Assembly: GCA_009781755.1 (NCBI GenBank)
Contig: WQVD01000002.1
Coordinates: 1-64,000 of the forward strand
DNA from: Defluviitaleaceae bacterium
GTDB lineage: Bacteria > Bacillota > Clostridia > Lachnospirales > WQUN01
DNA length: 64,000 nucleotides
Direction: 5' to 3'
A program made the translations under genes and the position numbers. Each line of letters begins with the position of its first letter. Positions within the stretch are counted from its first letter, which is position 1. This document shows positions 10,780 through 61,147 of this stretch, piece after piece. The notes beneath the pieces were generated by a model, which saw nothing but the letters and a program-made list of their open reading frames with translations, did not search any database and was not told the DNA's origin.

Positions 10780-11991
10780 CTATGACCGTGTCAAGGCATG
10801 CTCCGCTGCCGCCAAAATCATCTCGCGCAGCCCTATTTCCATCAAGCGCGATTCCATGCGCTCGATGACTTGGGCATTGGGTTTATTTTCGGGGTGCTTG
10901 GCAACAAACAGCGTGCAACAGTCTTCAAAGGGGCGGATGGAAATATCAAATGTGCCAATACGCCGCGCGATGGCGATGATTTCGTGTTTGTCCATGGTGG
11001 TCAGGGGGCGCAGGACGGGCAGGGGCGTAGCAGAGTTGACGGCGGCCAGGCTTTGCAACGTTTGGCTGGCGACTTGGCCCACTGCGTCGCCGGTGATTAA
11101 GCAGAGTGCTTTCTCCGCGGCAGCCACGTGCGATGCGATGTGCATCATGGCACGCTTGAGGAAAATGGTGAGTTTTTCTGCCGGTACGTGTTCTTGCAAA
11201 TAGAGTTGGATGTCCGTGAAGGGCACGACACGCAGGGGGATAACGCCCGTGTAGGGGGCCAGTGCACCCAGCAAGTCGTTAACCTTGTCCGTCACGCGCT
11301 CGCTCACATACGGCGGCGAGTGAAAGTACAGCGGAATCAACGACACGCCGCGTTTGGCTGCCAAGTACCCTGCCACCGGCGAGTCAATGCCCCCCGAAAG
11401 CAGCAGCACGCCCCGCCCCGCCGAACCATAAGGCAATCCGCCCTCGCCACCCACCGACGTTACATAGAAGTACACATGGTTGCGCACCTCCACATGAAAA
11501 ACCGTATCCGGCGCATGCAAATCCACCCGCGCCCCCGGCATATTATCAAACAAGCATTCCCCAATGTCCGCAGATATCTCCTGCGAGGTTAACGGAAACC
11601 GCTTGTCCGCCCGCTTCGAAGCCACTTTAAACGACCCGCCGCGCAACTTATCCCGAAAGAACTCCAGCGCAATCTGCCGCAGTGCGCCCATCTCCCGCTC
11701 CGTAGTCTTGATGCCCACACAAAAAGCAATGCATCCGAAAATCGTTTGCACCAACGGCAGCACCGCATCCGTGTCCAAGTCGCCGCTCAAGTCCTCAATG
11801 ACAAACCGGCCTTGTTCGCGGAATACACGAATATTGCCCGTATGCAGGCTTTTAATCCGACGCCGTATGTCGTCCATAATTTGCTTCTCGTAGAAGCCGC
11901 GGTTGCCTTGCCGCAGCGCGACCTCGCCATACTTGACGAGGAGGATGCGTTTGGTGGTGGGGGGTGGGGGGGTTGTTTGTGGGTTGGACAT
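10780..11991 (-). CDS. thiI: tRNA 4-thiouridine synthase ThiI
   Basis: ThiI adenylates U8 of tRNA and transfers sulfur from a cysteine desulfurase persulfide; it can also feed thiamine synthesis. The 403 residues hold a ferredoxin-like/THUMP region to about residue 175 and the PP-loop SGGIDSP at about 199-205. There is no C-terminal rhodanese extension, as in the Bacillus type. GGAGG lies six bases before ATG. The dedicated sulfur donor is probably the NifS-like gene just upstream at 12281, as in many Bacillota where the two are adjacent. A repeat cassette of about 220 bp separates the two genes here. Confidence 0.95.
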   Translation of the reverse strand: MSNPQTTPPPPTTKRILLVKYGEVALRQGNRGFYEKQIMDDIRRRIKSLHTGNIRVFREQGRFVIEDLSGDLDTDAVLPLVQTIFGCIAFCVGIKTTEREMGALRQIALEFFRDKLRGGSFKVASKRADKRFPLTSQEISADIGECLFDNMPGARVDLHAPDTVFHVEVRNHVYFYVTSVGGEGGLPYGSAGRGVLLLSGGIDSPVAGYLAAKRGVSLIPLYFHSPPYVSERVTDKVNDLLGALAPYTGVIPLRVVPFTDIQLYLQEHVPAEKLTIFLKRAMMHIASHVAAAEKALCLITGDAVGQVASQTLQSLAAVNSATPLPVLRPLTTMDKHEIIAIARRIGTFDISIRPFEDCCTLFVAKHPENKPNAQVIERMESRLMEIGLREMILAAAEHALTRS

Positions 11992-12039: not shown

Positions 12040-12264
12040 AAGACCCTGGGCGCTGCCCAGACCCGCGAGGGGAAGCGTTCCCCTCGACCCGCGCTGTGTT
12101 TCGCGAGGCTCGGATTATTGGCTGGTGCAAATTTTCAGTTGGTTGCAAATTGCAACCAACTGGATTTTTATCCTAGCCATGATTGAAAGGGGGCGACGCC
12201 CAGATCAGGGGTCAAGGGGCGCGAGTGCCCCTTGCGGGGTTTGGGGCGGATGCCCCAAGGTCTT
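12040..12264. repeat. Composite intergenic repeat cassette (first copy)
   Basis: Three parts lie in order: a GC-rich double hairpin in reverse orientation (12040-12093, CCTGGGCGCTGCCCAG and a GAGGGGAAGCGTTCCCCTC stem), a 27-bp palindrome (12136-12162), a short TAGCCATGATTGAAAGG stretch, and a second double hairpin in forward orientation (12207-12264). The same parts occur in the same relative order, inverted, at 58027-58366. It fills the gap between the desulfurase and thiI. No gene is seen in it. Confidence 0.85.
12136..12162. repeat. 27-bp palindromic element, copy 1
   Basis: Arm CAGTTGGTTGCAA, one central A, then the exact reverse complement of the arm. It is identical to the copy inside the ECF ATPase gene at 17211-17237. 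There is no T run beside it, so it is not an ordinary terminator. Confidence 0.9.
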
Positions 12265-12280
12265 AATCTTTTGACTTTAA

Positions 12281-13465
12281 TCATTTGGCAACCAGCCGCC
12301 AGCCGCTTACTTTGCGCAGCTGCGCTACGCACTGCACCAGCGCGTGTTTCGTTTCTTTTACCTCTTCCAGCGTGTTCATGTGCGCGAAGGAGAACCGCAC
12401 AGCACTTTCGGCACGATCTTTGGCGTAGCCCATCAAAGCCAACGATGAGGTGTCACGCTTGTTACGGGATTTGCAAGCGGCTCCCATGGACACGTAGATA
12501 CCGCGTTCGGACAACATGTGAACGAGGACTTCGCCGCGCGTGCCTAGGAAGGATAGGTTCAGTATGTGCGGGGAGGTTTCAAGTAGCGTGGCTTCATGTA
12601 GCGTGGCACCGGGCGGAATGACTTGAGCGGCGTTGATATGCGTGGCAGCGATTTCGTGGCAAATGGCGGCTAGGTTAGTATTTAACAACGCGATGTGGGT
12701 GTGATGTTCATTACAATGCGCATGCAGGAACTGCGCGGCTTGAGCCAGGGATACGGCAGATGCTACATTTTCTGTACCCGCGCGTAGGTTGGCCTCTTGG
12801 CCGCCGCCATGGAAAAGCGGCGCAAGTTTGACGGGCTTGCGTATGGTGATGCAACCGCCTGATGCGTGGATTTTGTGCCCGCTGATGGTATATATATCGG
12901 AAGCGTTATAAACGGACGCGGCTTGGGGATCCTTGCAAAAACCTTGTGCGCCATCGGTGAAGATGACGGTTTGTGGGTTGGCGGATTTGAGTTTTTGCGC
13001 TAGGGCGGGGATGTCGGTACGGTCGCCGGTTTCGTGGTTGATGTGGGATAGGCAGGCCAGCGTGGGCGCGGCGGTGATTTTTTCTGCCCATTCGGTGGCG
13101 GATGCAACGGTTACTGTGGCGTAGCCCATTTGTGCGGCGTGTTGCGCGGGTGCTAACACGGATGGATGCGCCCACGGCTCCACCAAAATAGATGGCATCA
13201 TGCCGCCATGCCGCGTCTTGCTTATGTAAGACAGCGCGAAACCCAACACAGCCATGTTATTCCCCTCCGTGCCACCCGAAGTGAAGAAAACATCGCGCGG
13301 GTCGCAGGACAAAATCGCCGCCAATTGAGCGCGGGCTTGTGTCAGGGTGCGTTCTGCGGCAATGCCCGCCGCATGGGGCGACGACGGGTTGGCGTAGAAG
13401 GGTTGCGCCGCAACGTCGGAAATTTGTAATGGCGGCGTGGTAGCGGCGTGGTCGAGATATATCAT
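12281..13465 (-). CDS. Cysteine desulfurase, NifS/IscS family
   Basis: A PLP enzyme that releases sulfur from cysteine as a persulfide. It is 394 residues long, starts with the family signature YLDHAATTPP, has the PLP lysine in SGHKIHASGG and the catalytic loop Cys in MGAACKSR. GGAG lies eight bases upstream of ATG. It precedes thiI on the same strand, so its main role is probably tRNA thiolation, although Fe-S cluster assembly cannot be excluded. No scaffold or iron-sulfur assembly gene is next to it. Confidence 0.92.
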   Translation of the reverse strand: MIYLDHAATTPPLQISDVAAQPFYANPSSPHAAGIAAERTLTQARAQLAAILSCDPRDVFFTSGGTEGNNMAVLGFALSYISKTRHGGMMPSILVEPWAHPSVLAPAQHAAQMGYATVTVASATEWAEKITAAPTLACLSHINHETGDRTDIPALAQKLKSANPQTVIFTDGAQGFCKDPQAASVYNASDIYTISGHKIHASGGCITIRKPVKLAPLFHGGGQEANLRAGTENVASAVSLAQAAQFLHAHCNEHHTHIALLNTNLAAICHEIAATHINAAQVIPPGATLHEATLLETSPHILNLSFLGTRGEVLVHMLSERGIYVSMGAACKSRNKRDTSSLALMGYAKDRAESAVRFSFAHMNTLEEVKETKHALVQCVAQLRKVSGWRLVAK

Positions 13466-14333: not shown

Positions 14334-15161
14334 TTATTTACTACTTTCCCAAAGCAGTGAAATCTGCGCCAAAAGCGCGGGCGCGGCGGTTTCGGTACGT
14401 AGGACACGCGGCCCCAATGATACGGCGTGTGCACCGACGGACAGCAAGCTATCCACTTCGCCGCGCGAGAAACCTCCTTCGGGACCTATCCAAATACTCA
14501 GCGATGCAGGCAGTGCGGGGTGATTAAGGCAAGACTGCGACGCGGCATACAACGACCGCACCAACCCTACTAATGTAGGCAACGACTCCGCACCCGTTTC
14601 CGAAGGGGATAACGCGGCAATCCACAAATGTTGGGAGGGTTTTGTTCCTACCGCGTTCTCAAACCGCACCGGCATTGTCACTTCGGGCAAGATGCCGCGG
14701 TTGCATTGTGCGGCGGCGGCGTGGGCTATTTTTTGGTAGCGCGGTTGTTTTTTCTCGATATTTTTGGCAAGGGTATGGGCGGTGTATAGGGGGATGATTT
14801 TGGCCGCGCCCAGTTCAACGCTTTTTTGGATGATGGATTCAATTTTGTCGCCTTTGGGGTGGGCTTGGTAGACGGTGATGGGCATGGGTGGTTCAGTGGC
14901 GCAAGGTGTGCTGGCGATAATTTCGAAAGCGCATTCAAAATTACGGGAATCAGTTGGTTGCAAGTTGCCACCAACTGGTCGCAACTTGCGACCGGTTGAT
15001 TCACGCAGAATGGCAGTGTAATCCATACGCGCGCCATCGCACAGGGTTACCTCTGCACCCGGCTTCAAGCGCAGGACGTGCAGTAGATGGTGCGCCGTTT
15101 CGCCACGCAAGGTTACGACATCGCCCATTTTATCCCCCGGAACAAAAAAATACTTAGGCAT
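14334..15161 (-). CDS. rsmE: 16S rRNA m3U1498 methyltransferase RsmE
   Basis: A SPOUT methyltransferase that methylates U1498 of 16S rRNA. It is 275 residues: PUA-like N-terminal domain to about residue 85, then the knotted domain with IWIGPEGGFSRGEVD and LGPRVLRTETA motifs near the C-terminus. The ATG overlaps the prmA stop by eight bases, the usual prmA-rsmE arrangement. Residues 55-71 are encoded by two overlapping copies of the 27-bp palindrome (14951-14998), giving a 16-codon in-frame insertion in a loop of the PUA-like domain. The remainder looks intact, so the enzyme probably works. Confidence 0.93.
   Translation of the reverse strand: MPKYFFVPGDKMGDVVTLRGETAHHLLHVLRLKPGAEVTLCDGARMDYTAILRESTGRKLRPVGGNLQPTDSRNFECAFEIIASTPCATEPPMPITVYQAHPKGDKIESIIQKSVELGAAKIIPLYTAHTLAKNIEKKQPRYQKIAHAAAAQCNRGILPEVTMPVRFENAVGTKPSQHLWIAALSPSETGAESLPTLVGLVRSLYAASQSCLNHPALPASLSIWIGPEGGFSRGEVDSLLSVGAHAVSLGPRVLRTETAAPALLAQISLLWESSK
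14951..14998. repeat. Two overlapping 27-bp palindromic elements inside rsmE
   Basis: The first copy is 14951-14977 (arm CAGTTGGTTGCAA, one mismatch to the other arm) and the second 14972-14998 (arm CAACTGGTCGCAA, one mismatch). They share CAACTG. Together they are 48 bp, a multiple of three, and keep the rsmE frame open. Confidence 0.88.
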
Positions 15162-16167
15162 GAATGCACACCAAGCAATGCCAGCCCTCGCGCTGTTGGT
15201 CGGCGATGAGGGATAACGCGGGCGGCAACGCGGCGTGCACATCGGCAGCGCGGTCGTCAATGATGCCCGAGGCAATAAAAATCCCGCCCGGTTTTAGCAG
15301 GACGGGAACAAGCGGCAACAGCGCAATGACCACATCAGCCACGATATTGGCGACGATTACGTCGTATTTGCGCGCTGCCACGGTATCGCGGACGGATTTA
15401 TCGGTAATAATATTGCCGTGTAGCACTTCCAGTCGGGCGGATTGAATGCCTTGCGCCGATTGCTGTGCGCGGCATTCAATCGTGCCAACGCTATTGAGTG
15501 CGGCGTTTTTATGCGTGGAAGAAATGGCCGACGGATCGATATCGCAAGCGGTCACGTGTGCCGCGCCCAACTGCAAGCCGATGACGGACAAGATACCGCT
15601 ACCGCAACCCGCGTCCAACAGCACATGCCCCTCACGCACATAATTTTGCAACGCCTCCACGCAAAGGTAAGTCGTAGCGTGTTGCCCCGTGCCGAATGCC
15701 GAACCGGGATCCAGTACAAAGGTAATTGGACTTGTTTCGGGCGAGCCGTTAATCGCAGGCTCCGCTTGCGGTGGTACATCCCACGCGGGCACAATCGTAA
15801 CACGCCCCACACGTATGGGCACAAAGTGCTTTTTCCATTCCTCCAGCCAGTCCGCGTCATCCACGAATTCCATTTCCAACCGAGTAGCGAAAGACAAAGA
15901 CGGCAGCGCTTCCTTTATATCTACCAATGTTTGTGCGCCTTGCGCATCGGCGGGCAGGTAGCACACCACGCAAGCAGCGTCATCTGCGGGAATATTTACC
16001 AGCGCGTCGTCCACATAATCCCATGCGGTGGTGTCCTGCGCCAAAAAAACGGCGTACTCCTGTGGATCAATGATTTCCACAGCTGCGATGCCGAAGTCAG
16101 GCAGCCAAGCAGCCAGCGCGTCAATGTGGCTAGATGTAGCGTGAATACGAATTTTTGTCCATTTCAT
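15154..16167 (-). CDS. prmA: Ribosomal protein L11 methyltransferase PrmA
   Basis: PrmA trimethylates ribosomal protein L11 with S-adenosylmethionine. About 337 residues: an N-terminal substrate-binding domain, then a Rossmann methyltransferase core with DPGSAFGTGQHATT, LDAGCGSGILS, and the NIVADVV motif (family NPPY-like NI-A). ATG 16167 is preferred over TTG 16179: GGAG lies six bases before the ATG. It is first in the prmA-rsmE operon and divergent from the ECF module. Confidence 0.94.
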   Translation of the reverse strand: MKWTKIRIHATSSHIDALAAWLPDFGIAAVEIIDPQEYAVFLAQDTTAWDYVDDALVNIPADDAACVVCYLPADAQGAQTLVDIKEALPSLSFATRLEMEFVDDADWLEEWKKHFVPIRVGRVTIVPAWDVPPQAEPAINGSPETSPITFVLDPGSAFGTGQHATTYLCVEALQNYVREGHVLLDAGCGSGILSVIGLQLGAAHVTACDIDPSAISSTHKNAALNSVGTIECRAQQSAQGIQSARLEVLHGNIITDKSVRDTVAARKYDVIVANIVADVVIALLPLVPVLLKPGGIFIASGIIDDRAADVHAALPPALSLIADQQREGWHCLVCIHA

Positions 16168-16348: not shown

Positions 16349-18106
16349 ATGATTACCGCAGAAAAGCTTTCCTACACCTACCCACCGACGGAACCGCGCG
16401 ATGCCGCGACTCCGCCGGCGCTTTTCGGTGTGGATTTGGCGATTGCGCAAGGTGCCTATGTAGCAATCGTAGGGCACAACGGCTCAGGCAAGTCCACTTT
16501 GGCACGCCACATGAACGCGCTACTTGCGCCCACTAGCGGTACGATGTACATAGACGGTAAAAACACCGCCGACACTCATTTATTATGGGAAATCCGCAAA
16601 ACCGCGGGCATGGTTTTCCAAAATCCGGACAATCAATTGGTAGCCACTTCTGTAGAAGAAGACGTGGCTTTCGGACCCGAAAACTTAGGGCTGCCTTCAG
16701 AAGAAATCCGCACCCGCCTCAACGATGCGCTGGCCGCCGTAGGCCTTAGCGATTTTGCCCAGCATGCGCCCTCGCGCTTATCCGGCGGGCAAAAACAACG
16801 TGTAGCCATCGCAGGCGTTTTTGCCATGCAACCGCAAATATTAATTTTGGATGAACCTACCGCCATGCTAGACCCCGCAGGCCGCCGCGAAGTCATGCAA
16901 ACCATTGCCGCACTCAACCGTACAGGCATCACTGTGGTGCTAATAACACACTTCGTGGAAGAAGCCGCAACGGCCGACCGCATCATTGTCATGCACAAGG
17001 GGCAAGTAACCATGGACGGCAGCGCCCTCGAAATTTTCGCACAACCGCAAAAACTGGTGGAACTCGGACTTGCCTTGCCCACACCCATTGCACTGGCCGA
17101 ATTATTGCGCAAACATGGAATAGCAATTGCACCAAATATCATTACTGCAGCAGATTTATTAGCGGACACCACTTTGCAATTAGTGATTACTGCAGGACAA
17201 ATACAAAATCCAGTTGGTTGCAAATTGCAACCAACTGAAATCTCAGCCCCCGTTCGTCAATATGCTCCCGCGAATACCGGCAATGCGCTATTGGAACTCC
17301 GCAACATCTCCCACACTTACAACCGCGGCACCACCTTCGAAATCACTGCAATACGCGACGTATCCCTCACCGTACACACCGGCGAAATTCTGGGCATCAT
17401 CGGCCACACCGGTTCCGGCAAAAGTACACTCATCCAACATTTGAACGGCCTGCTTACACCCACATTGGGTCAAATCATTCCGCCCCTTGACGCAAAAACG
17501 CGCCGCAATGTGGGGTTAGTTTTCCAATATCCCGAACATCAACTCTTCGAATCAACCGTGTACCGCGATGTCGCCTTCGGTCCAACGAAAATGGGGCTGC
17601 AGGGCGATGCACTTGACACCGCCATACGTCATGCACTGACGCTGGTGGGGTTACCCGATGACACATGGGAGCGTTCACCATTCGCATTATCGGGCGGGCA
17701 AAAACGCCGCGCCGCTATCGCAGGCGTGCTAGCCATGCAACCGCAAATCCTCATCTTAGATGAACCTACCGCCGGTCTCGACCCCGCCGGTTGTAAAGAA
17801 ATCTTAGACCTCATCGCAGCCATGCGGCACGAACGTGCCATTGTGTTGGTTTCGCATTCCATGGACGAAATTGCACGTTTGTGTGACAGCGTTGTGGTCA
17901 TGAACCACGGCGAAATCGCCTTACAAGGCAGCCCGCGGGAAGTTTTCGCTCAGCAAAAGCAACTTGAAAACATGGGGTTGGACGTACCACAAATCACCCA
18001 TATCATGTCACGCCTGGCAGAAATAAATCCGGCATTACCAACGGATGTTTTATCGTTGACAGAAGCCGCCAATATTATCGCGGGTATATCTGAGGTTTCT
18101 TCATGA
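16349..18106 (+). CDS. ECF transporter ATPase, EcfA-EcfA' fused in one chain
   Basis: A 585-residue protein made of two complete ABC ATPases that are usually separate genes. Domain 1: Walker A GHNGSGKST, signature LSGGQKQR, Walker B ILILDEPTAMLD. Domain 2 from about residue 308: Walker A GHTGSGKST, signature LSGGQKRR, Walker B ILILDEPTAGLD. Together with EcfT it energises exchangeable S components for vitamin uptake. The linker at residues 288-297 is encoded by a perfect 27-bp palindrome also present elsewhere. EcfT starts within its stop (ATGA). No clear ribosome site precedes ATG 16349. No S component is seen in the window. Confidence 0.93.
   Translation: MITAEKLSYTYPPTEPRDAATPPALFGVDLAIAQGAYVAIVGHNGSGKSTLARHMNALLAPTSGTMYIDGKNTADTHLLWEIRKTAGMVFQNPDNQLVATSVEEDVAFGPENLGLPSEEIRTRLNDALAAVGLSDFAQHAPSRLSGGQKQRVAIAGVFAMQPQILILDEPTAMLDPAGRREVMQTIAALNRTGITVVLITHFVEEAATADRIIVMHKGQVTMDGSALEIFAQPQKLVELGLALPTPIALAELLRKHGIAIAPNIITAADLLADTTLQLVITAGQIQNPVGCKLQPTEISAPVRQYAPANTGNALLELRNISHTYNRGTTFEITAIRDVSLTVHTGEILGIIGHTGSGKSTLIQHLNGLLTPTLGQIIPPLDAKTRRNVGLVFQYPEHQLFESTVYRDVAFGPTKMGLQGDALDTAIRHALTLVGLPDDTWERSPFALSGGQKRRAAIAGVLAMQPQILILDEPTAGLDPAGCKEILDLIAAMRHERAIVLVSHSMDEIARLCDSVVVMNHGEIALQGSPREVFAQQKQLENMGLDVPQITHIMSRLAEINPALPTDVLSLTEAANIIAGISEVSS
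17211..17237. repeat. 27-bp palindromic element inside the ECF ATPase gene
   Basis: A perfect palindrome with 13-nt arms and a central A, identical to 12136-12162. It encodes part of the linker between the two ATPase domains (PVGCKLQPTE) and keeps the frame. Confidence 0.92.
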
Positions 18107-41037: not shown

Positions 41038-41064
41038 CAACCGGTGGCAAATTGCCACCAGTTA
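41038..41064. repeat. 27-bp palindromic element, copy near 41.0 kb
   Basis: Arms CAACCGGTGGCAA and TTGCCACCAGTTA around a central A; two differences between arms, one a G-T pair. It lies just past the stop of the fusion gene on the minus strand. Confidence 0.82.
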
Positions 41065-41079
41065 ATTTCCACCGCACAA

Positions 41080-44000
41080 TCAATCCATGCGCAAAACAGT
41101 GATGGCTTGGGGATAAGCAAAGGCATCCATAGGAGCATCGGTTTGTATAGTAACATGTATCCAATTTTGTCCCAAGTGGAAAACAGAAACCACGACGGCG
41201 TTTGCGCCCCCGGTTGTGAGTACTTGTGCGTTTTCCAAGCGTGCAACGTTATATTCAGTTTGTTCTAATAGGATGACTTGGTCAACGCGGTTGATGCCAT
41301 TATACCAATGGTAATCGGTGAGTGACGTCGCTCGTACCGTGCCTGCGTTATGCAGTTCTTCAATGGGTGTAAGGGCAAATATATCACTGTCACCCACCCG
41401 AATAATGACATGATTCCTGCGTAATATCGATGCCCAATGGTTGGTGGCATCATACATAAATACATAATTGGGGCGGATAAAATTTTCTACGTGGAAGAGG
41501 AAGCGTTCTTCATTCAAGCCAATGCCCATGCCCGGTAGTTGAAATGTGAGGATGCCGGTATGCGCGCCAAACTCGTTTACAGACAGCCCACCCAAGTTAA
41601 ACAGCCGTATGTCGCGGTTGTGTTCATTTGCGTGCTCGGTTAGCAATTCTGCCAGCTGTATGGTGTGCTCCGGTACAGTGATGCGCGGCATATCCACGAT
41701 GGGCGATCGCATCCGGTCATGCATATGTTGCACAGTAGGTTGCACAACGGAAGTTATTGAAACAAGGCCTATAACGATGACAAGGCCTATCCAAGCCATG
41801 GGCTTCGGTTTGGCTTTAGCCAAGTAGCATAAGATAACGAATAACATAATGATGTTCGTCTCGGCATGTAGGCGGAAATCACCGTAGCCCATTAAGTAGA
41901 TGACGACAGTCTTAGCCACATAAATAACGGTCGTAAATATGAGTAAAACACGCATGCCGCGTAAGTCGTTGTTGTTCTCGTTGCGGATGACGCTAGATGC
42001 GATGCCGATGGCGGCTGCGCCCACTAAAACAATCATTTCCACCGGGCGCGTAAGCATTTGCATCAAGTTGGTAATACGCACCACGATAATGTCTTGGCGG
42101 CTGGTTATCCAAGCAGCGCGGTCGGTGAAGAACGTAGGAATGATCTCGCCCGGCATATTCGGACGTATCGGTGCGGACGGGTGAATCAAAAATATTGTAC
42201 TGCTGTTGTCGAATACCCAAATCGTGTCAAAATGCATTAGCGAATAAACAATCCACGGCCAAGTAAACACCAACAAGCCCAATACATAAAACGGCACAGT
42301 CAAAAGCAACCGCCGCTTTGCCAAAAATACAAAAAAGAAAGCGATGCCCATTAATAGAGCAATTGCCATGAAGTCAAACCGCATCACCATACCCGCGCCA
42401 GCAAACATGCCAATCAGGAACAAATCACGCGGTGCGGCAGTTTTGCGCAGGAAGGCTTTAAATTTGGATTCTTGCGGATCTATAAATGCATCTTCGTCCG
42501 CGTCGGCAGTATTAATTTCGAATATCTTGGAATGCGCCATCACATTCAATATCAATAACACGCACAACACCGATAACGGCACCGCCCGTGCAGACAACAC
42601 TTCGTCCATATATTCGGGGTTAAACACCATCAACGCCGCCCCAATAATACCGGGGTAAGTAAAACCGGTTAGCTTGGCCGAAATGCGGATAAACAAATAA
42701 ATCGACACAAATACTGCAACCAAGTTAATAACATTACCGGAATAAATGCTAAAGCCCGTCAACATATTCACAACCGAAATCATTACCGGAAAAAGATAGG
42801 GGAACGAAACCGCTAATTCACTATGTATGACGTATTGCCGTACCGCGCCCGTGACTCCAAAATTAGTGAAAATCGAATGCGACATGTCGTAATAGCTGAA
42901 AGAATCAACGGTATACACCACGCCGCGGTTAATAAAAATGATCATCAGCGATACAACTAAAAATACCACCGACGTAGCGGTGACATAAAGTTCTGTTTTA
43001 TTTTCGGCGTCCTCGTGGCTTCGGATGTAAATAATCGCGCCCATTAAGAGATAGAAGAAAATAAACAGCAACCAAAACAAGCCCAAATTGAAGGTTTCAT
43101 TCACCAGCACCAACGCATAAAAAGCAAAAGGCCCCAGCAAAAACGCAAATTCTGCGAACGAAGCATTTTCAAATTTTAAATCAAGCCGCTTGCAAAGAAC
43201 GAGCAGCAAGCAACCCAGCAACGCACCCAACGCAACGGTGCCCGGTATGTTGCCCATATTAACCCGGCGGAAATCTTCTAATATTGCCAACAAAAATGCC
43301 GCAGGGTGCAGCGCAATAATAAAAGCGATGACAATCTTAAACGCTGAAAATTCGGACGCCGAAGGTTGCGGTTGAATCGGCGGCTGTACCGGTGGTGGCA
43401 ATTGCGGCGGCGGGGGTTGTAATGGTGGTGGCTGCAATGGCTGCAGCGGCGGTAATGACTGCAGCGATTGCAAAACCGGCGGTACTTGTGTTGCAGGGTT
43501 AGCGTCTACAGCGGCACGCGGCATTCGTTGTTGCGGCGGCGGTTGCAAGGGCGGCGTTGGCGGCGCTTGGGAAGCATCAACGCGCACATTCACCTCTGTG
43601 GTCGTAACCAACTTTTTTATATCGTGTGCGACGCGTGTTTTGTCGCATATATAACCGTTGGGAACGCCGCTGCCCAACAACGCTGCGTGCCTTGTTTTGA
43701 AGAAGCTATAATCAAAAGGATTGGCGCTTATTGCGTTGTTGAAGGGTTCGTTGTAGATATTTTGGTATAGTTCGGCGGCGCTGATGGGCTCGTTGGCCAT
43801 GTGAGCGAGCGTTACTTGGTTGGCCAGCAGCATTTGTATGTGTGTCCACAAATGATTCAAGTTGTAAAAAGAAAACCGCGAGCGCGAATCTGTGAAGTTG
43901 AGCGCAGAGAAACCCAAGCGTTTGAAAATGGCTTTTAATTTAATTTTTTCGTCGGGCGGCAGGTTGGGTTGCAAGCGGTAGAAACCGTTGGCATCCGGCG

Positions 44001-44529
44001 TGTAATAGTGTGCGACTTGGCTTTCCTTTAAGGTTAATTCAACGAATTTGTCCAATTTAAGCATGGCTGGAATGTAGTGCATCATATCGTAGACGAAATT
44101 CTTCTTGAGTCCGCGGCCAAATAATGCGGGCAAGCGGATGATTAACGCTTGCGGGTAAAGCTTGCGGACTTCGTTTTCCAAGTACAAGCGGTTGCGCCCG
44201 TAGGGGGTTAGTGCGGCGGTATTGTAAGGAGTATCTTCATAAATATCGCCGCGTTGCATCGCCGGGATAACATCCACGGTAGAAATTAACACCAATCGCT
44301 TGGGTGCGATGCGTTTGATATTTGCCAGTGCGCCATGAATATGCGCCAAATCTTCTTCGGGGAAGTTGTCCGCGCGGAATTTTTCTGATCGCACGCCGCT
44401 GTACACGCACAAATCCGGCGCGGTGCCGTAAGCGTCGCTGACATTCTTCGAGTTGTATAAACCGTCGAAGTTATGCCGTGCGTGCAGATTTTGCCCAACA
44501 AAGCCGGTGTAACCTACTAATATATTCAT
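41080..44529 (-). CDS. Fusion: NAD-dependent epimerase/dehydratase plus GT-C type membrane glycosyltransferase
   Basis: About 1149 residues. Residues 1-310: extended SDR/epimerase domain with Rossmann motif [11 protein letters not shown] and, at the active site, YGRNRLYLE (Arg where Lys is usual). Residues 325-395: a linker of Pro/Gln/Leu repeats. From about 400: a polytopic membrane part with a dozen or more helices, and an acidic loop near residue 610-650 ([10 protein letters not shown], as in PMT/ArnT-like GT-C proteins), then a C-terminal soluble domain. Start ATG 44529 has TAGGAGG 13 bases upstream. It lies 17 bp after RNase J in the same direction. It probably makes or transfers a modified sugar at the membrane; substrate unknown. 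Confidence 0.75.
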
Positions 44530-44546
44530 GGTGATAACCGTGCCTC

Positions 44547-46223
44547 CTACAGCTCCATCAAAATGGGGAAGATCATCGGATTGCGTTTGGTCTGCTTCCA
44601 TATGAATTCCTTCAAGTCATCGCGGATGCGGTTGCGGATGGTGGCCATGTCGGCTTTTTTGTTGGCGAGGTCGTACATGGTTTCCTTGACGCAGGCGCGT
44701 GCGCCTTGCATGAGTTCGTCGTTTTCCTTCACGAATACGAAGCCGCGGCTGATGATATCGGGGCCGGATACGACTTCTAAGTGGCCGTCTTCGGCTACGA
44801 TGCCTACAGCGGCAATGATTAGGCCGTCTTCGGACAGGTGCTTGCGGTCACGCAGTACGACGTTGCCCACGTCGCCGATGCCCAAGCCGTCGATGAGGAC
44901 TTGCCCACTGGGAACATTGCCGTTCAATTTGGCGCCGGTGTTGGAAACCTCCAGCACTTGCCCAATATCGGCTAGGAACACGTTGTCCTTGGGCATGCCC
45001 ATGGAAATGGCCAAATCTTTGTGGTGTTTGAGATGGCGGTATTCGCCATGAATGGGCAGCAGGAATTCGGGGCGAATGAGGGCGTGCATGAGCTTGAGCT
45101 CCTCTTCCTTGGCGTGGCCGGAGACGTGCACTTCCATCATGCCCTCGTAGATGACCTCTGCGCCCAGTTTGAGCAAGTCATTAATTACGCGGGAAATCAT
45201 TTTCTCGTTGCCGGGAATGGGCGAAGCGGAAATGATGATTTTGTCCGACGGGGTGATGACGATTTGCCGGTGATCGCTGGCTGCCATGCGCGACAATGCC
45301 GCCATTTGCTCGCCTTGTGAACCAGTGGTGACAATACATAACTGCTGTGGCGTATAGTTACGCGCCTCGTGGATGTCGATGACCGCGCCCTTGGGGATGT
45401 CCAAATAACCCAATTCGCCCGCGGTTTTGACCGCGTTGATCATCGACCGCCCCATAAACATCGTCTTGCGCCCGTGCTGTACAGCAGAGGTAATGACTTG
45501 TTGGATGCGGTCAATATTGGACGAAAACATCGCGATCATCAATCGATGATTGGGCGATTCTTCAAACACTTGCTCGAACATGCGCCCTACGCGGCGTTCG
45601 CTCATCGTATATCCCTTGCTCAACACATTGGTTGATTCGCAAAGGAAAAGCTTGACGCCCTGATCACCCAACACGGCGAAGCGTTGCAAGTCCATGGGGT
45701 CGCCCTGTATGGGCGTAAAGTCCACTTTAAAGTCGCCGCTGTGGATGACCATGCCCACCGGTGTATCCACCGCAATGGCCACACTGTCCACCACACTGTG
45801 CGTCACGCGGATAAATTCTACTTCAAAGCAACCGGCGGTAATGGCTTCGCCGGGGTTAATGCAAGTCATCTCGGCCGCGGCACTCAATCCGTGTTCCTTC
45901 AATTTATTGGCCACCAGTCCCAACGTGAGCCGCGTGCCAAAAATGCGCATGTTCACTTCGCGCAGCAAATAAGGCACACTGCCGATATGATCTTCGTGCG
46001 CATGGGTTAAAAATAACCCGCGTATCTTGTGCGCGTTCTGCACCAAATAAGTGAAATCGGGAATTACCAAGTCGATCCCCAACATCCCATCCTGCGGAAA
46101 CGCTACCCCGCAGTCGATAATGATAATGTCGTTACCATACTCCAGTACGGTAATGTTCTTGCCAATTTCGCCTAATCCGCCCAAGGCGAATACTTTCAAC
46201 TTGCTGTTCTTCTTAGCTGCCAA
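44547..46223 (-). CDS. rnj: Ribonuclease J
   Basis: A metallo-beta-lactamase/beta-CASP RNase with 5'-to-3' exonuclease and endonuclease activities, central to mRNA decay in Bacillota. 558 residues, the family length. It has the zinc motif THAHEDHIGSVPYL, a beta-CASP domain and a C-terminal domain. Start TTG 46223: AGGAAGG lies nine bases upstream; longer frames enter the large hairpin. A 240-bp fold-back structure (46271-46510) lies in the presumed leader. The SDR/glycosyltransferase fusion follows 17 bp downstream. Confidence 0.94.
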   Translation of the reverse strand: MAAKKNSKLKVFALGGLGEIGKNITVLEYGNDIIIIDCGVAFPQDGMLGIDLVIPDFTYLVQNAHKIRGLFLTHAHEDHIGSVPYLLREVNMRIFGTRLTLGLVANKLKEHGLSAAAEMTCINPGEAITAGCFEVEFIRVTHSVVDSVAIAVDTPVGMVIHSGDFKVDFTPIQGDPMDLQRFAVLGDQGVKLFLCESTNVLSKGYTMSERRVGRMFEQVFEESPNHRLMIAMFSSNIDRIQQVITSAVQHGRKTMFMGRSMINAVKTAGELGYLDIPKGAVIDIHEARNYTPQQLCIVTTGSQGEQMAALSRMAASDHRQIVITPSDKIIISASPIPGNEKMISRVINDLLKLGAEVIYEGMMEVHVSGHAKEEELKLMHALIRPEFLLPIHGEYRHLKHHKDLAISMGMPKDNVFLADIGQVLEVSNTGAKLNGNVPSGQVLIDGLGIGDVGNVVLRDRKHLSEDGLIIAAVGIVAEDGHLEVVSGPDIISRGFVFVKENDELMQGARACVKETMYDLANKKADMATIRNRIRDDLKEFIWKQTKRNPMIFPILMEL

Positions 46224-56862: not shown

Positions 56863-57392
56863 TGGCAAATTATCTACTGGTTGACGGTTACAACATCATC
56901 CATTCGGACGAATCGTTGACGCGTTTGGCGGAGGACTCGCTGGAAGCTGCGCGTATCAAGCTGTGTGATTTGCTGCGCGAATTCGCAGCGCTTAGCGTGT
57001 ACCGTATCATCGTGGTATTTGATGCGCACCTCGTGGCCGGTGGTTTGGGCAGTGATACGGATTACGGCAATATCAAGGTGGTTTTCACCAAGGAAGCGGA
57101 AACTGCCGACCATTACATAGAACGCGCCGCTTATGACATGGCGCGGGGCAAACACGACAAAATCACCGTTGCCACTTCCGACGTGTTGGAGCAACTCATT
57201 ATATTGGGTAGCGGTGCCGCACGCATCGGTGCGGATGCCTTGTTAGCAGAAATTGAAGCCGCTCGCAAACAAATGCGCCGCCGCCACATCCTGAACCGAC
57301 CCGTCAAAAATAACCCCTTCGAAGGCCTGCTGGACAAGAAAACAGCCGCCATCCTTGAGGACATGCGGCTGGGGAAGCGAGGCAAACCATGA
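56862..57392 (+). CDS. YacP-like NYN/PIN-fold ribonuclease
   Basis: 176 residues starting LLVDGYNIIHSDESL, the NYN domain signature with the catalytic Asp. In Bacillus the orthologue (Rae1) cleaves mRNA on the ribosome. ATSDVLEQLIILGSGA fits the second acidic site. It overlaps rlmB and sigH at both ends. Confidence 0.9.
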   Translation: MANYLLVDGYNIIHSDESLTRLAEDSLEAARIKLCDLLREFAALSVYRIIVVFDAHLVAGGLGSDTDYGNIKVVFTKEAETADHYIERAAYDMARGKHDKITVATSDVLEQLIILGSGAARIGADALLAEIEAARKQMRRRHILNRPVKNNPFEGLLDKKTAAILEDMRLGKRGKP

Positions 57393-57991
57393 CGCCAAAT
57401 CCGCAAGAAGAGCAACTTATTCAAGCCGCCAAAGCGGGTGATGCCTTCGCCATGGACGCGTTATTTGCGCGTTATAAATCGCTTGTGCGGGCCAAGGCGT
57501 CCATGTACTACATATCCGGCGGTGACCGCGATGATTTGATTCAAGAGGGCATGATTGGCTTGTACAAGGCTTTCCTCGATTACGATCCGCAGCGCAATCC
57601 CGTATTCGCTGCCTTCGCCTCCCTATGCATCAACCGCCAAATCCAAACCGCCATCAAATCAGCCGCGCGGCAAAAACACGCACCCCTCAACGCTGCCCAG
57701 ACGCTGGACGTCGCCGAAGCGCCAGCAGGTATTGCCGCCAACGTTACTAGCGCCGCCAGCACTACTAACCCCGAAATCCTTTTCCTGGGGCGCGAATCGA
57801 TCAAAAACATTGCATTATTCATTCGCGAGCATCTTTCTCCGTTAGAACGAGACGTGTTGCTGTTGCATATAAACGACCAGACCCATGCACAAATCGCGCA
57901 GCGGATGGGCAAGACTGTGAAGTCCGTGGACAATACGTTGCAACGTGTGCGGAGGAAGGTGCGGGTGTTTCGGGATGGCGGCGGCGGTTGA
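57389..57991 (+). CDS. sigH: RNA polymerase sigma factor SigH-type
   Basis: 200 residues. Region 2 with YISGGDRDDLIQEGMIGLYKA and region 4 with AQRMGKTVKSVDNTLQRVRR. Position after rlmB-yacP and the sequence match SigH, which drives transition-state and sporulation genes in Bacillus; in a Clostridia-like host it may control a similar set. Overlaps yacP by four bases. Confidence 0.92.
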   Translation: MTPNPQEEQLIQAAKAGDAFAMDALFARYKSLVRAKASMYYISGGDRDDLIQEGMIGLYKAFLDYDPQRNPVFAAFASLCINRQIQTAIKSAARQKHAPLNAAQTLDVAEAPAGIAANVTSAASTTNPEILFLGRESIKNIALFIREHLSPLERDVLLLHINDQTHAQIAQRMGKTVKSVDNTLQRVRRKVRVFRDGGGG

Positions 57992-58154
57992 CTGCCAAGG
58001 TTGCCAGGATTGCCAAGAGCAAAGGCAAAACCTCGGGGGACGCTGCCCCCGAACCCCCGCAAAGGGGCACAAGCGCCCCTTTGATCCCCTATGTGGGCGT
58101 TGCCAAATAAGGCTTTAACCGGCCCCCCTCTCAATCATGGCTGGGACACATTTT

Positions 58155-58181
58155 CAACTGGTGGCAAATTGCCACCAGTTG
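58155..58181. repeat. 27-bp palindromic element, perfect copy
   Basis: Arm CAACTGGTGGCAA, central A, exact reverse complement. It differs from the 12136 copy at paired positions in both arms, so pairing is kept. Confidence 0.92.
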
Positions 58182-58390: not shown

Positions 58391-61069
58391 TTATTTCTTG
58401 CGCTTACTAGGCGCCGCCGCTCCGCCGAATCCAATCAACTTCAAAGCAAAGCCACTCGCAATCAACACCACCAAGCTCACCACCGAAATCACCACACCTA
58501 CACGGAACGACGAGTTGACATGACGGAACACGATATCGTGTGTGCCTGCGGGCAATTCTACGGCTACCATGGCATCGGCGAAGAGTACGGCTTCTGCGCG
58601 TTCGCCATTAACGTAAACGCGCCAGTTGCCTGCGTGGGGGATGGAAGTATACAGCAGGCCACCCTGTGTGGTGACGGTACCCTCGATGCGGGTATCGCCC
58701 ATGTGGGTCACTACGAGGGGTTCGGCGGCCAGTAGGGTATGGCCATGGGCGAATAAGCCATGATCAATCGTAGCGGCAAAAACATTTACCGCAGTATTTG
58801 CGGCAGATGTTTGCGATTCAATCACGGCAATATCACCGGCATTGAAGCTGCCCATGCGGAAGATATAAGACGAATGCGTAATGTCCACGGTATTAATGAC
58901 TTCACCATTGCGCAGCACGCGTGCTTCCGTACCGCCGTGGTAATGGATGAAGCCATACAAGCAACCATCGCGCGGCACAACAAACTCGAAGCGCAATGTA
59001 CCGCCGGAGTCCGGATTAATGCGCGCCATGTCGCGTGTACCCGCATCGTTTCCGTAGGTGGTGAAGTTGATGTGGTTGTACGTCATGGGCAGCAGCGTGA
59101 ACAACTCTTGTTGCAACCCAGTCGTCAGACGGAAGAGTTCATTTTGCGATGCGAACGGATGTGTGATGCTGCCTTCAAACATAGCGGCTTGCGAACGTAC
59201 CATGAAACCCAAGGGTAATGCGTAACGGTTACGCATGAGATTTAAGCTGCCTTCATAAGCGATTTGCTCCCAAAATACACCCGTGTCGGCTTGATGGCCG
59301 GAACGATGCACCAAGTAGCGCATGTTAAGGAATGCGTTGGTCAGGGGCGTGGTTTCGGCATAGTTGATGCTGTTGGAACGCCTGCGGTACGGCAAGCCCA
59401 ACCGTTGGATATAACTACCCAACGTGTAATCAAACATGGACGAGAACAACGCCCAGCCCTGATAACCGTACAGCGTGGTATCGTTCGAACTCCACCACCG
59501 CGTAAACTCCGTGCGGAAGAAGTCCGTTTCGTCCGTCATATTGCGTTGCGCCAGCAGATACTGCACTTCATCATTATGCCAAGGATAAGGCTCGCGCGGA
59601 GTGGTGGTATTGGATTGCACCGCCGCCACCGCCGCGATGGAAACTTCAAATATCAATATCATTGCAAATAAAATCGGCACCGCGCCCTTAAGCACACGTT
59701 GCGCTTTAAATAAGATGTGCGTCTTGTGCACAGCGGGTTCGGCCGCGCCGGTTATCATAAACAAAATCAAATACAACAGGACAAATAAAGCGCCAAAACC
59801 TACATACCGGCCTTCTTGCCGTCCAATCGTGGCCATCAGCGCGAAGAACGCGCCACCCAGCACCAACGCCAGCGTATGCCCCGGCTTCTTCGTATCGAAG
59901 ATAAGGTAAGCCTTGTAAGCCAAAGCCACCAGCAAAAACGAAGCGATAAACGCATAACGGAACGGCAACGCATGGGGGAAACTGAATCCATGCAGGATAA
60001 AATCTAAATACCGGTTATTACTGCTGATGATTAAAAATGCCAGTGCTACTGAAAATGCAATCTTCTCGCGCTTGTTGATTTTGTCGGAAATAAGAAATAC
60101 CGGCAGCAACATCAACGATATCACACCGGTAAAGAAGCTCGGCAAGGCAATGGGCGGGTGTTTTAAATCATGGTGGTGCTGTGCAAAGAAATTACCCAAC
60201 ACATCCGCAATATTCGTAAACCAAGCTTCATGGATGGATTCCATCGTGTTTACACTATTAACCGCGTTGTACGAACGATCCAGCGCAACAAAAGTGGGCA
60301 ATGTAATAAAAGCCGTAAGCCCGATGGCCAATAGCGAACACAACCCAACTGCCAACAATTTCATTAAAAAATCCATTGGCTTCAATTTGGCAATGTATGC
60401 CTGCATGAAGAAGTAAATTGCAACAAAGATGCAAATGAATACACCCATCAGGAAGTTAAAGATAATCGCCAATGCCAGCGACACAACAAAAAGGCGGTAC
60501 CGCCCCGTATGCACGAGTTGATACACGCCAATCATCACCACGGGCACCAGCGCGAAGCTGTCCATCCACATGATGTTCCAATAATACGCCAGCGCAAAGC
60601 CGCACAACGCATACAACGTAGCAAAAAACGGCGTCATCAAATTAATCTTCTTGGTCGTATAATGCAAAAATGCACACATGGCCGCGCCCGCCAAGCCCAA
60701 CTTGATGACCAGGAAAACCTGCACCAACGGGCGCAACATTTCGTAGGGGAACAGCGCCGCCAGTAAATTGAACGGGCTGGCCAAATAATAAGCAATGTGC
60801 GCCAAGAAATTGTGCCCGCCGCCCGCGGTCCAGGACCACAATAACGAGTCACCGCCACGCAGCCTATGCCAATAATCGCTAATAAACGGATAATATTGCT
60901 GCCAAAAGTCCGAAACCAAGATCATCCGGTTGGCTTCCTCGCCTGTCCTAAACGGGAATACCCCCTGCGCCGCAAACACCCCCCACAAAATCGCCATCGG
61001 TGTCAACACCGCCAGCGCATAATATAGGCGCATCGCAAAACGCGGATTATCTGTTAAATACTTTTCCAT
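58391..61069 (-). CDS. YfhO-family membrane glycosyltransferase-like protein
   Basis: 892 residues from ATG 61069, with GGAGG eight bases before it. About 12 to 14 membrane helices in the first 500 residues (starting LYYALAVLTPMAILWGVF, with DFWQQYYPF as in YfhO), followed by a large external domain of beta strands ending in one helix and a Lys-rich tail. YfhO proteins glycosylate lipoteichoic acid in Listeria and Bacillus. No teichoic acid gene is adjacent. Confidence 0.85.
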   Translation of the reverse strand: MEKYLTDNPRFAMRLYYALAVLTPMAILWGVFAAQGVFPFRTGEEANRMILVSDFWQQYYPFISDYWHRLRGGDSLLWSWTAGGGHNFLAHIAYYLASPFNLLAALFPYEMLRPLVQVFLVIKLGLAGAAMCAFLHYTTKKINLMTPFFATLYALCGFALAYYWNIMWMDSFALVPVVMIGVYQLVHTGRYRLFVVSLALAIIFNFLMGVFICIFVAIYFFMQAYIAKLKPMDFLMKLLAVGLCSLLAIGLTAFITLPTFVALDRSYNAVNSVNTMESIHEAWFTNIADVLGNFFAQHHHDLKHPPIALPSFFTGVISLMLLPVFLISDKINKREKIAFSVALAFLIISSNNRYLDFILHGFSFPHALPFRYAFIASFLLVALAYKAYLIFDTKKPGHTLALVLGGAFFALMATIGRQEGRYVGFGALFVLLYLILFMITGAAEPAVHKTHILFKAQRVLKGAVPILFAMILIFEVSIAAVAAVQSNTTTPREPYPWHNDEVQYLLAQRNMTDETDFFRTEFTRWWSSNDTTLYGYQGWALFSSMFDYTLGSYIQRLGLPYRRRSNSINYAETTPLTNAFLNMRYLVHRSGHQADTGVFWEQIAYEGSLNLMRNRYALPLGFMVRSQAAMFEGSITHPFASQNELFRLTTGLQQELFTLLPMTYNHINFTTYGNDAGTRDMARINPDSGGTLRFEFVVPRDGCLYGFIHYHGGTEARVLRNGEVINTVDITHSSYIFRMGSFNAGDIAVIESQTSAANTAVNVFAATIDHGLFAHGHTLLAAEPLVVTHMGDTRIEGTVTTQGGLLYTSIPHAGNWRVYVNGERAEAVLFADAMVAVELPAGTHDIVFRHVNSSFRVGVVISVVSLVVLIASGFALKLIGFGGAAAPSKRKK

Positions 61070-61147
61070 AAAAATCGCCTCCACACGTATTCTAACATGA
61101 AGAAATGCAAAAAAGCCACCATTTCCATTGATTGTAAGGTTTTGAGA

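Follow-up and report, generated by a model that had tools for sequence, protein, structure and literature searches.

The 64,000-nucleotide stretch of Defluviitaleaceae DNA analysed here (the window) carries the same kind of 27-bp palindrome in six places, within genes as well as between them, which raises the question of what this sequence is, where it came from and what keeps its two arms matched. All six copies named in the original prediction were found at the positions it gave, each consisting of two 13-nt arms around a single central base. The copies and their surroundings are as follows.

10780-11991, minus strand: thiI-like gene, left neighbour of the 12136 copy
12041..12262 (approximate limits): larger GC-rich, multi-hairpin dispersed repeat centred on the palindrome
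12136..12162: palindrome copy CAGTTGGTTGCAA-A-TTGCAACCAACTG, intergenic, within the larger dispersed repeat
12281-13465, minus strand: aminotransferase class V gene, right neighbour of the 12136 copy
14334..15275, minus strand: RsmE-like RNA methyltransferase gene with an in-frame double insertion (Pfam Methyltrans_RNA, 1.7e-40; alignment)
14951..14977: palindrome copy with one mispaired position, in frame in the RsmE-like gene, between its PUA and methyltransferase domains
14972..14998: second palindrome copy in the RsmE-like gene, overlapping the 14951 copy by 6 bp (period 21)
16349..18106, plus strand: ABC ATPase gene with two ATPase domains
17211..17237: palindrome copy, in frame (PVGCKLQPTE), in the linker that joins both ATPase halves of the duplicated ABC ATPase
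41038..41064: palindrome copy mispaired at two positions, about 16 bp 3' of the stop codon of the minus-strand gene 41080-44601
57389-57991, plus strand: sigma-70-type gene, left neighbour of the 58155 copy
58105-58154: second window site of the larger repeat
58155..58181: palindrome copy between convergent genes, adjoining the left part of the larger repeat
58391-61084, minus strand: YfhO-like gene, right neighbour of the 58155 copy

The prediction also held that arm position 9 varies between copies with a matching change in the opposite arm, and that positions 3 to 5 change in pairs. The former applied to five of the six copies, the exception being that at 14951 (T/C). The latter was upheld for pairs 3, 4 and 5 across the genome, with exceptions at position 5 in the copies at 14972 (T/G) and 41038, which is mispaired at position 1 as well.

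A search of the 2.64-Mb genome that holds the window (G000, a draft in which gene calls are ORF-based) with the core GGTNGCAANTTGCNACC returned 135 strict copies, as compared with none for the reversed control, so that the further copies expected elsewhere in the genome do exist. Ninety-seven copies, with the consensus CARYYGGTNGCAANTTGCNACCRRYTG, were fetched and read for covariation and placement. Since the search pattern itself fixed pairs 6-8 and 10-13, covariation was judged on the free pairs only. Watson-Crick pairing was seen at pairs 3, 4, 5 and 9 in 99%, 94%, 75% and 81% of these copies, respectively, as compared with 50%, 48%, 53% and 34% expected for independent arms. The two half-sites were identical in 51 of the 97 copies (shuffled mean 8.4, maximum 19), and all nine combinations of three main arm types with three position-9 bases occurred as perfect palindromes. 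The covariation score of the dispersed copies was 0.263, above that of shuffled arms (0.129) and of slid controls (at most 0.134), and the covariation predicted from the window was thereby confirmed in the genome. These data suggest that the symmetry of the palindrome is itself being kept. The earlier proposal that selection keeps a paired structure was supported as to the maintained pairing, seen in the genome copies and, as separate evidence, in Bro-N genes of several phyla (described below); the keeper may be either selection or hairpin-templated correction. A sub-family with the core GGYYCCAAATTGGRRCC occurs alongside the main one in the same genome (C2:82406, C3:30023, C5:13376, C9:44074 and others) and also at L053 and L080. 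An Rfam search of the window at curated thresholds returned two tRNAs only and left the palindromes unmatched. With no Rfam match, no GTAG or CGTC tag and no RAYT, the view that no named element has this core held up; in its behaviour the family is like REP and Rickettsia-palindromic-element repeats.

We examined the placement of the copies, counting as intragenic those within an ORF of at least 120 aa (a simple ORF rule, under which such ORFs make up 86% of the fetched DNA). Thirty of the 97 copies were inside ORFs and 65 in gaps between ORFs, the gaps being tandem (30), convergent (18) or divergent (17). A run of at least four T or A was found within 9 nt of 38 of the 67 non-intragenic copies, as compared with 13% of random intergenic positions, and in the window the 12136 copy is followed by GATTTTT; the claim that no T runs flank the palindromes was therefore wrong. 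The flanks showed an AT-rich Y|R preference, AAAAWY|RWTTTT, and frequently extended the palindrome: runs of at least 6 numbered 8 in the window genome (larger repeat removed), 6 in G014 and 8 in G016, both of the same family, as compared with 0.6, 0.4 and 0.8 in shuffled flanks. The copies thus tend to lie midway in other dyads, many of which resemble terminators. By blastn, the genome regions fetched contained more than 20 copies of the larger repeat that surrounds the 12136 copy, and in a few of these an ordinary terminator hairpin took the palindrome's central place.

Such replacement, together with the A/T runs, is what would be expected if the palindromes were RNA hairpins serving mostly as intrinsic, often bidirectional, transcription terminators. 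However, about 30 of the 97 copies lie in ORFs and 17 between divergent genes, and the palindromes inside genes show no G-U preference; we regard this explanation as very unlikely. The layout of an intrinsic terminator, in which a GC-rich hairpin precedes a T run where a gene ends, was seen at about half of the intergenic copies only. The original remark that these are not ordinary terminators thus fits the copies inside genes and between divergent genes, but not the many that sit mid-way in terminator-like dyads.

The intragenic copies used all three reading frames, the commonest reading being QLVANC(N/H/D)QL or similar. The two overlapping copies in rsmE add about 15 aa (STGRKLRPVGGNLQP), and alignment with four congeneric orthologues showed that these lack them; the empty orthologous sites that the prediction had proposed to look for were thus seen for rsmE, at the protein level only, in orthologues of about 50-55% identity. 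The copy in tgt corresponded to a net gain of 2 aa relative to solved homologues, and that in asnA to no length change, suggesting, as far as such distant homologues allow, that copies may overwrite as well as insert. No PDB relatives were found for two further host ORFs. The ABC ATPase that carries the 17211 copy looks like fused ECF-transporter ATPases, and in G016 its halves match two separate adjacent ORFs.

The distribution across genomes was patchy. The exact core was absent from four congeners, and among the 96 genomes searched only one other had it, namely G016, from another genus of the same family, with 24 nearly identical copies. A relaxed core recovered dozens of variant copies in G014 (reading QPVSFCHRL) and about eight in G001 (reading QPVTICYRL); three other genomes of the family thus carry amplified variants. 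Judged by their sequences, the G014 and G001 readings resemble the Bro-N motif. The expected presence in relatives was therefore borne out in G016 and, as variants, in G014 and G001, but not, for the exact core, in the four congeners. Eighteen genomes at the level of the order had one copy each (one of them an overlapping pair), in most cases inside a Bro-N gene at QLVTNC(H/N)QL. None of the viral contigs searched had the exact 27-mer, and its carriage by phage was rejected. Single exact 27-mers were also noted in an Omnitrophota assembly, beside an apparent ORF6N remnant (L098:1028-1054), and in a Tannerella assembly, within an ORF6N-like gene (L106:4232-4258).

The palindrome is also found inside Bro-N genes, in bacteria as well as in phages, where the 27 nt encode QLVTNCHQL-like residues of the protein (Pfam Bro-N), and two of the window genome's own Bro-N genes contain the same core. 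The dispersed family and the Bro-N gene palindrome have both the core and its coding sense in common. Because Bro-N homologues align without a gap at the palindrome, it is not an insertion in these genes. The symmetry was assessed in 40 non-redundant Bro-N genes collected through protein or family searches that made no use of the palindrome (the median of their pairwise DNA identities being 56%); the order-level loci L129-L147 were left out because they had been found through it. Mispairs averaged 1.65 of 10 at this place, as compared with 7.55 when every position was taken (z -9.1; the runner-up position had -3.9), and 33 of the 40 genes had at most 2 of 10. The symmetry was kept through a full turnover of the amino acids (QLVTNCNQL, ELTTNCSQL, ELSTICRQL, YIGTNCPQV, NWGTICTLV, QLSEEIGQL and QLVGFSDQL). 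Random synonymous coding of the same peptides gave 6.3 mispairs of 13, as compared with 1.9 observed, and the covariation score was 0.590, as compared with 0.177 for shuffled and at most 0.14 for slid controls. The mispairs comprised 9 G/T and 13 A/C; this lack of a G/T excess favours double-stranded symmetry over an RNA helix, and selection for an RNA hairpin in Bro-N-type genes was rejected on this ground. That widespread DNA-binding genes should keep a palindrome in their coding DNA through paired base changes, and change amino acids to do so, is unusual in itself, and no paper on palindromes in RhuM, ORF6N or Bro-N genes was recognisable in the literature searched. The feature is not universal in Bro-N proteins, as 56 non-redundant classic phage Bro-N/Ant genes have no palindrome at this place.

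Compensatory changes could also arise without selection if the palindromes were functionless and quasi-palindrome correction, i.e. replication template switching in a hairpin, copied one arm onto the other, and this would apply to gene-internal and dispersed copies alike. Correction does not account for the single fixed codon position in very divergent genes, in which no other position keeps a palindrome, and it leaves the spread of the family and the second copies upstream of some genes unexplained; we consider it highly improbable as the whole explanation.

Two further settings of these genes were observed. On the Arcobacter cloacae plasmid pACLO (L223), a type I-B CRISPR locus includes, between its cas4 and cas1b genes, a Bro-N gene whose palindrome is perfect. 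On Treponema saccharophilum pTS1 (L229, L314), a type I restriction-modification locus contains two palindrome-bearing genes: one, annotated as Fic adenylyltransferase, has an N-terminus of the Bro-N type and a palindrome of its own, and the other is an ORF6N gene whose palindrome is perfect.

At the matching place, palindromes of unrelated sequence were found in RhuM (AACTGTCGCAAAATTTGCGACAGTT, AACTACTCGAAAAATTCGAGTAGTT, AACTGTTCGGGATTTCCGAACAGTT), in ORF6N (CTTGAGGTCGAAAATTTCGACCTCAAG) and in some DinD genes (GACCATTTTTCCGACGTTGGAAAAATGGTC). The best palindrome of the whole gene fell in one 17-residue window in 17 of 23 RhuM, ORF6N and DinD genes (P about 1e-16 if randomly placed, a value that overstates independence because the genes are related); it was missing from two ORF6N genes (Haliovirga and Legionella) and three DinD genes. 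The viral contigs contained no relatives of RhuM or of the Segatella-type ORF6N. A resident ORF6N gene as the source in the window genome was rejected, there being none.

Second copies were seen near a few of these genes. An ORF6N gene on a Segatella hominis plasmid has the window's core twice, near the N-terminus and at the wing codons (L336:24408 and 24630, 222 bp apart), these being the only two in 50 kb. A Butyrivibrio ORF6N gene has its own palindrome repeated 16 bp upstream of the start codon, and in G012 a matching palindrome lies upstream of a Bro-N gene. Two further palindrome-plus-AAAATG units stand in tandem upstream of the latter gene (L162:270-340), as if copied from the wing segment. 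Such second copies would look like operators, but they are few: a second matching palindrome was nearby in only three of about 58 genes, and a general upstream operator was rejected.

These upstream copies at three related genes, the two-fold symmetry with its fixed GGT..CAA core, and the overlapping pairs of sites spaced 21 bp apart, equal to two helical turns, would all suit protein-binding sites, either operators or nucleoid-protein sites, that function throughout the window genome and are kept by selection. Against this are the in-frame copies in rsmE, tgt, asnA and other housekeeping genes, the congeners without the core, and the lack of any fixed placement with respect to gene starts, since copies occur in tandem, convergent and divergent gaps alike. 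Binding sites of this kind seem to us distinctly unlikely to account for the family.

We also looked for marks of mobility. The Y1/RAYT transposase family (PF01797) was absent from G000, G016 and G001-G004, with positive results in control genomes, and a RAYT-driven REP was rejected since there is no Y1 transposase. No consistent target-site duplication was found, apart from a slight excess at 5-6 bp (6 and 2 of 97 copies) and none of 7 bp or more. In about 16% of the genome, 179 half-sites were paired and 1 was solo; this practical lack of solo half-sites, in the part read, speaks against terminal repeats of an IS. The family might still be a REP/RPE-like miniature mobile element whose transposase is yet to be identified, with Bro-N and related genes merely hosting insertions. 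Its high copy number, patchy occurrence across genera, in-frame copies and targeting of dyad centres are in keeping with this, and CGTC-type REPs likewise have no known transposase (PMC3733652). However, neither a target-site duplication nor, in six genomes, a Y1 transposase was found, the Bro-N segment aligns gap-free to its relatives and so holds no insertion, and the palindrome sequence differs by gene family at one fixed place. We consider such an element unlikely.

A phage Bro-N protein was modelled (mean pLDDT 82, pTM 0.66). In the model, the palindrome-encoded residues come after a long helix and fall in a short helix and the first beta-hairpin strand; the palindrome would thus cover the codons of the predicted first wing strand. 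Foldseek with this model returned DdrC chains as the only good matches (best E 6e-7, TM-scores 0.30-0.53), and no PDB sequence homologue of the Bro-N protein was found. DdrC binds ssDNA and anneals strands (PMC5436757), which, from the fold likeness alone, makes an annealing-based copying route conceivable.

We prefer the hypothesis, at a probability of about one half, that the 27-bp palindromes form a dispersed, REP-like family and that the unit they repeat is a native DNA dyad of Bro-N/KilA-N-type genes. In these genes, the dyad would keep its palindromic form while the DNA sequence and the encoded amino acids turn over. Most likely it would be recognised, as double-stranded DNA, by a symmetric dimer, probably of the encoded protein or of its small HTH partner, which would make it a candidate intragenic operator. 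In a few Lachnospirales-type lineages (those of the window genome, G016, G014 and G001), the unit may have been copied to many places, descent presumably running from the gene to the dispersed copies, which would have landed in A/T-rich spots, at the centres of dyads already present, terminators among them, and in frame in ORFs. The absence of a target duplication, the near absence of solitary half-sites and a net length gain that varies by site suggest that copying proceeded by hairpin- or annealing-based template switching, in which a patch is inserted or overwritten, rather than by a cut-and-paste transposase. Several findings weigh against this reading, among them the classic phage Bro-N/Ant genes that have no palindrome at this place and the scarcity of second copies near the genes. 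In addition, a search of G014 returned no Bro-N gene at the E cut-off used, so that its copies are independent of a resident Bro-N protein unless that gene was lost or missed, and the dispersed copies of the window genome have no clear Bro-N flank beyond the 27 bp.

More tentatively, it is possible, if rather doubtful, that in the Bro-N LVTNC-type, RhuM, ORF6N and part of the DinD genes the wing codons themselves contain the dyad which the wing recognises, that site and protein coevolve, and that copies can break away and multiply as REP/RPE-like elements. Both for small palindromic repeats that lack a transposase and for palindromes within protein genes, an origin has yet to be established. 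The Bro-N gene palindrome offers a source for the dispersed repeats, and a self-encoded site that escapes, if true, would provide an origin for untagged palindromic repeats.

Among known systems, REPs (GTAG and CGTC types; PMC3733652) are palindromes of 20-40 bp in high copy number, mostly intergenic, sometimes paired and sometimes in genes, and the present family, at 27 bp and 135 strict copies, is like them in size and number. It differs from REPs in having no unpaired GTAG or CGTC tag, its flanks showing the AT-rich Y|R preference only, and in being symmetric over nearly its full length around a single central base, with no RAYT. Unlike REPs, moreover, it often occupies the middle of other dyads and also occurs inside Bro-N genes. 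The family is also without the consistent target-site duplication of MITEs. The likeness to proteins of the DdrC/Bro-N fold (PDB 8u0g, 7udi, 7qvb) lies in the predicted fold of the product of the palindrome-carrying gene; for DdrC (PMC5436757) no such palindrome is described, and the similarity is one of fold only. The coding palindromes PARCEL (PMC2996958) are likewise coding DNA with dyad symmetry that has spread horizontally, but they are tandem 25-residue repeats in surface-type proteins and thus another kind of unit. Rickettsia palindromic elements (PMC10969869; RPE-4 and RPE-6 in PMC3733652) similarly place palindromes in the reading frame of unrelated protein genes. Those reviewed in PMC10969869 are about 150 bp long and known from Rickettsia, whereas the present family is 27 bp long, uses all three frames, occurs in Lachnospirales-type genomes and has a likely source gene.
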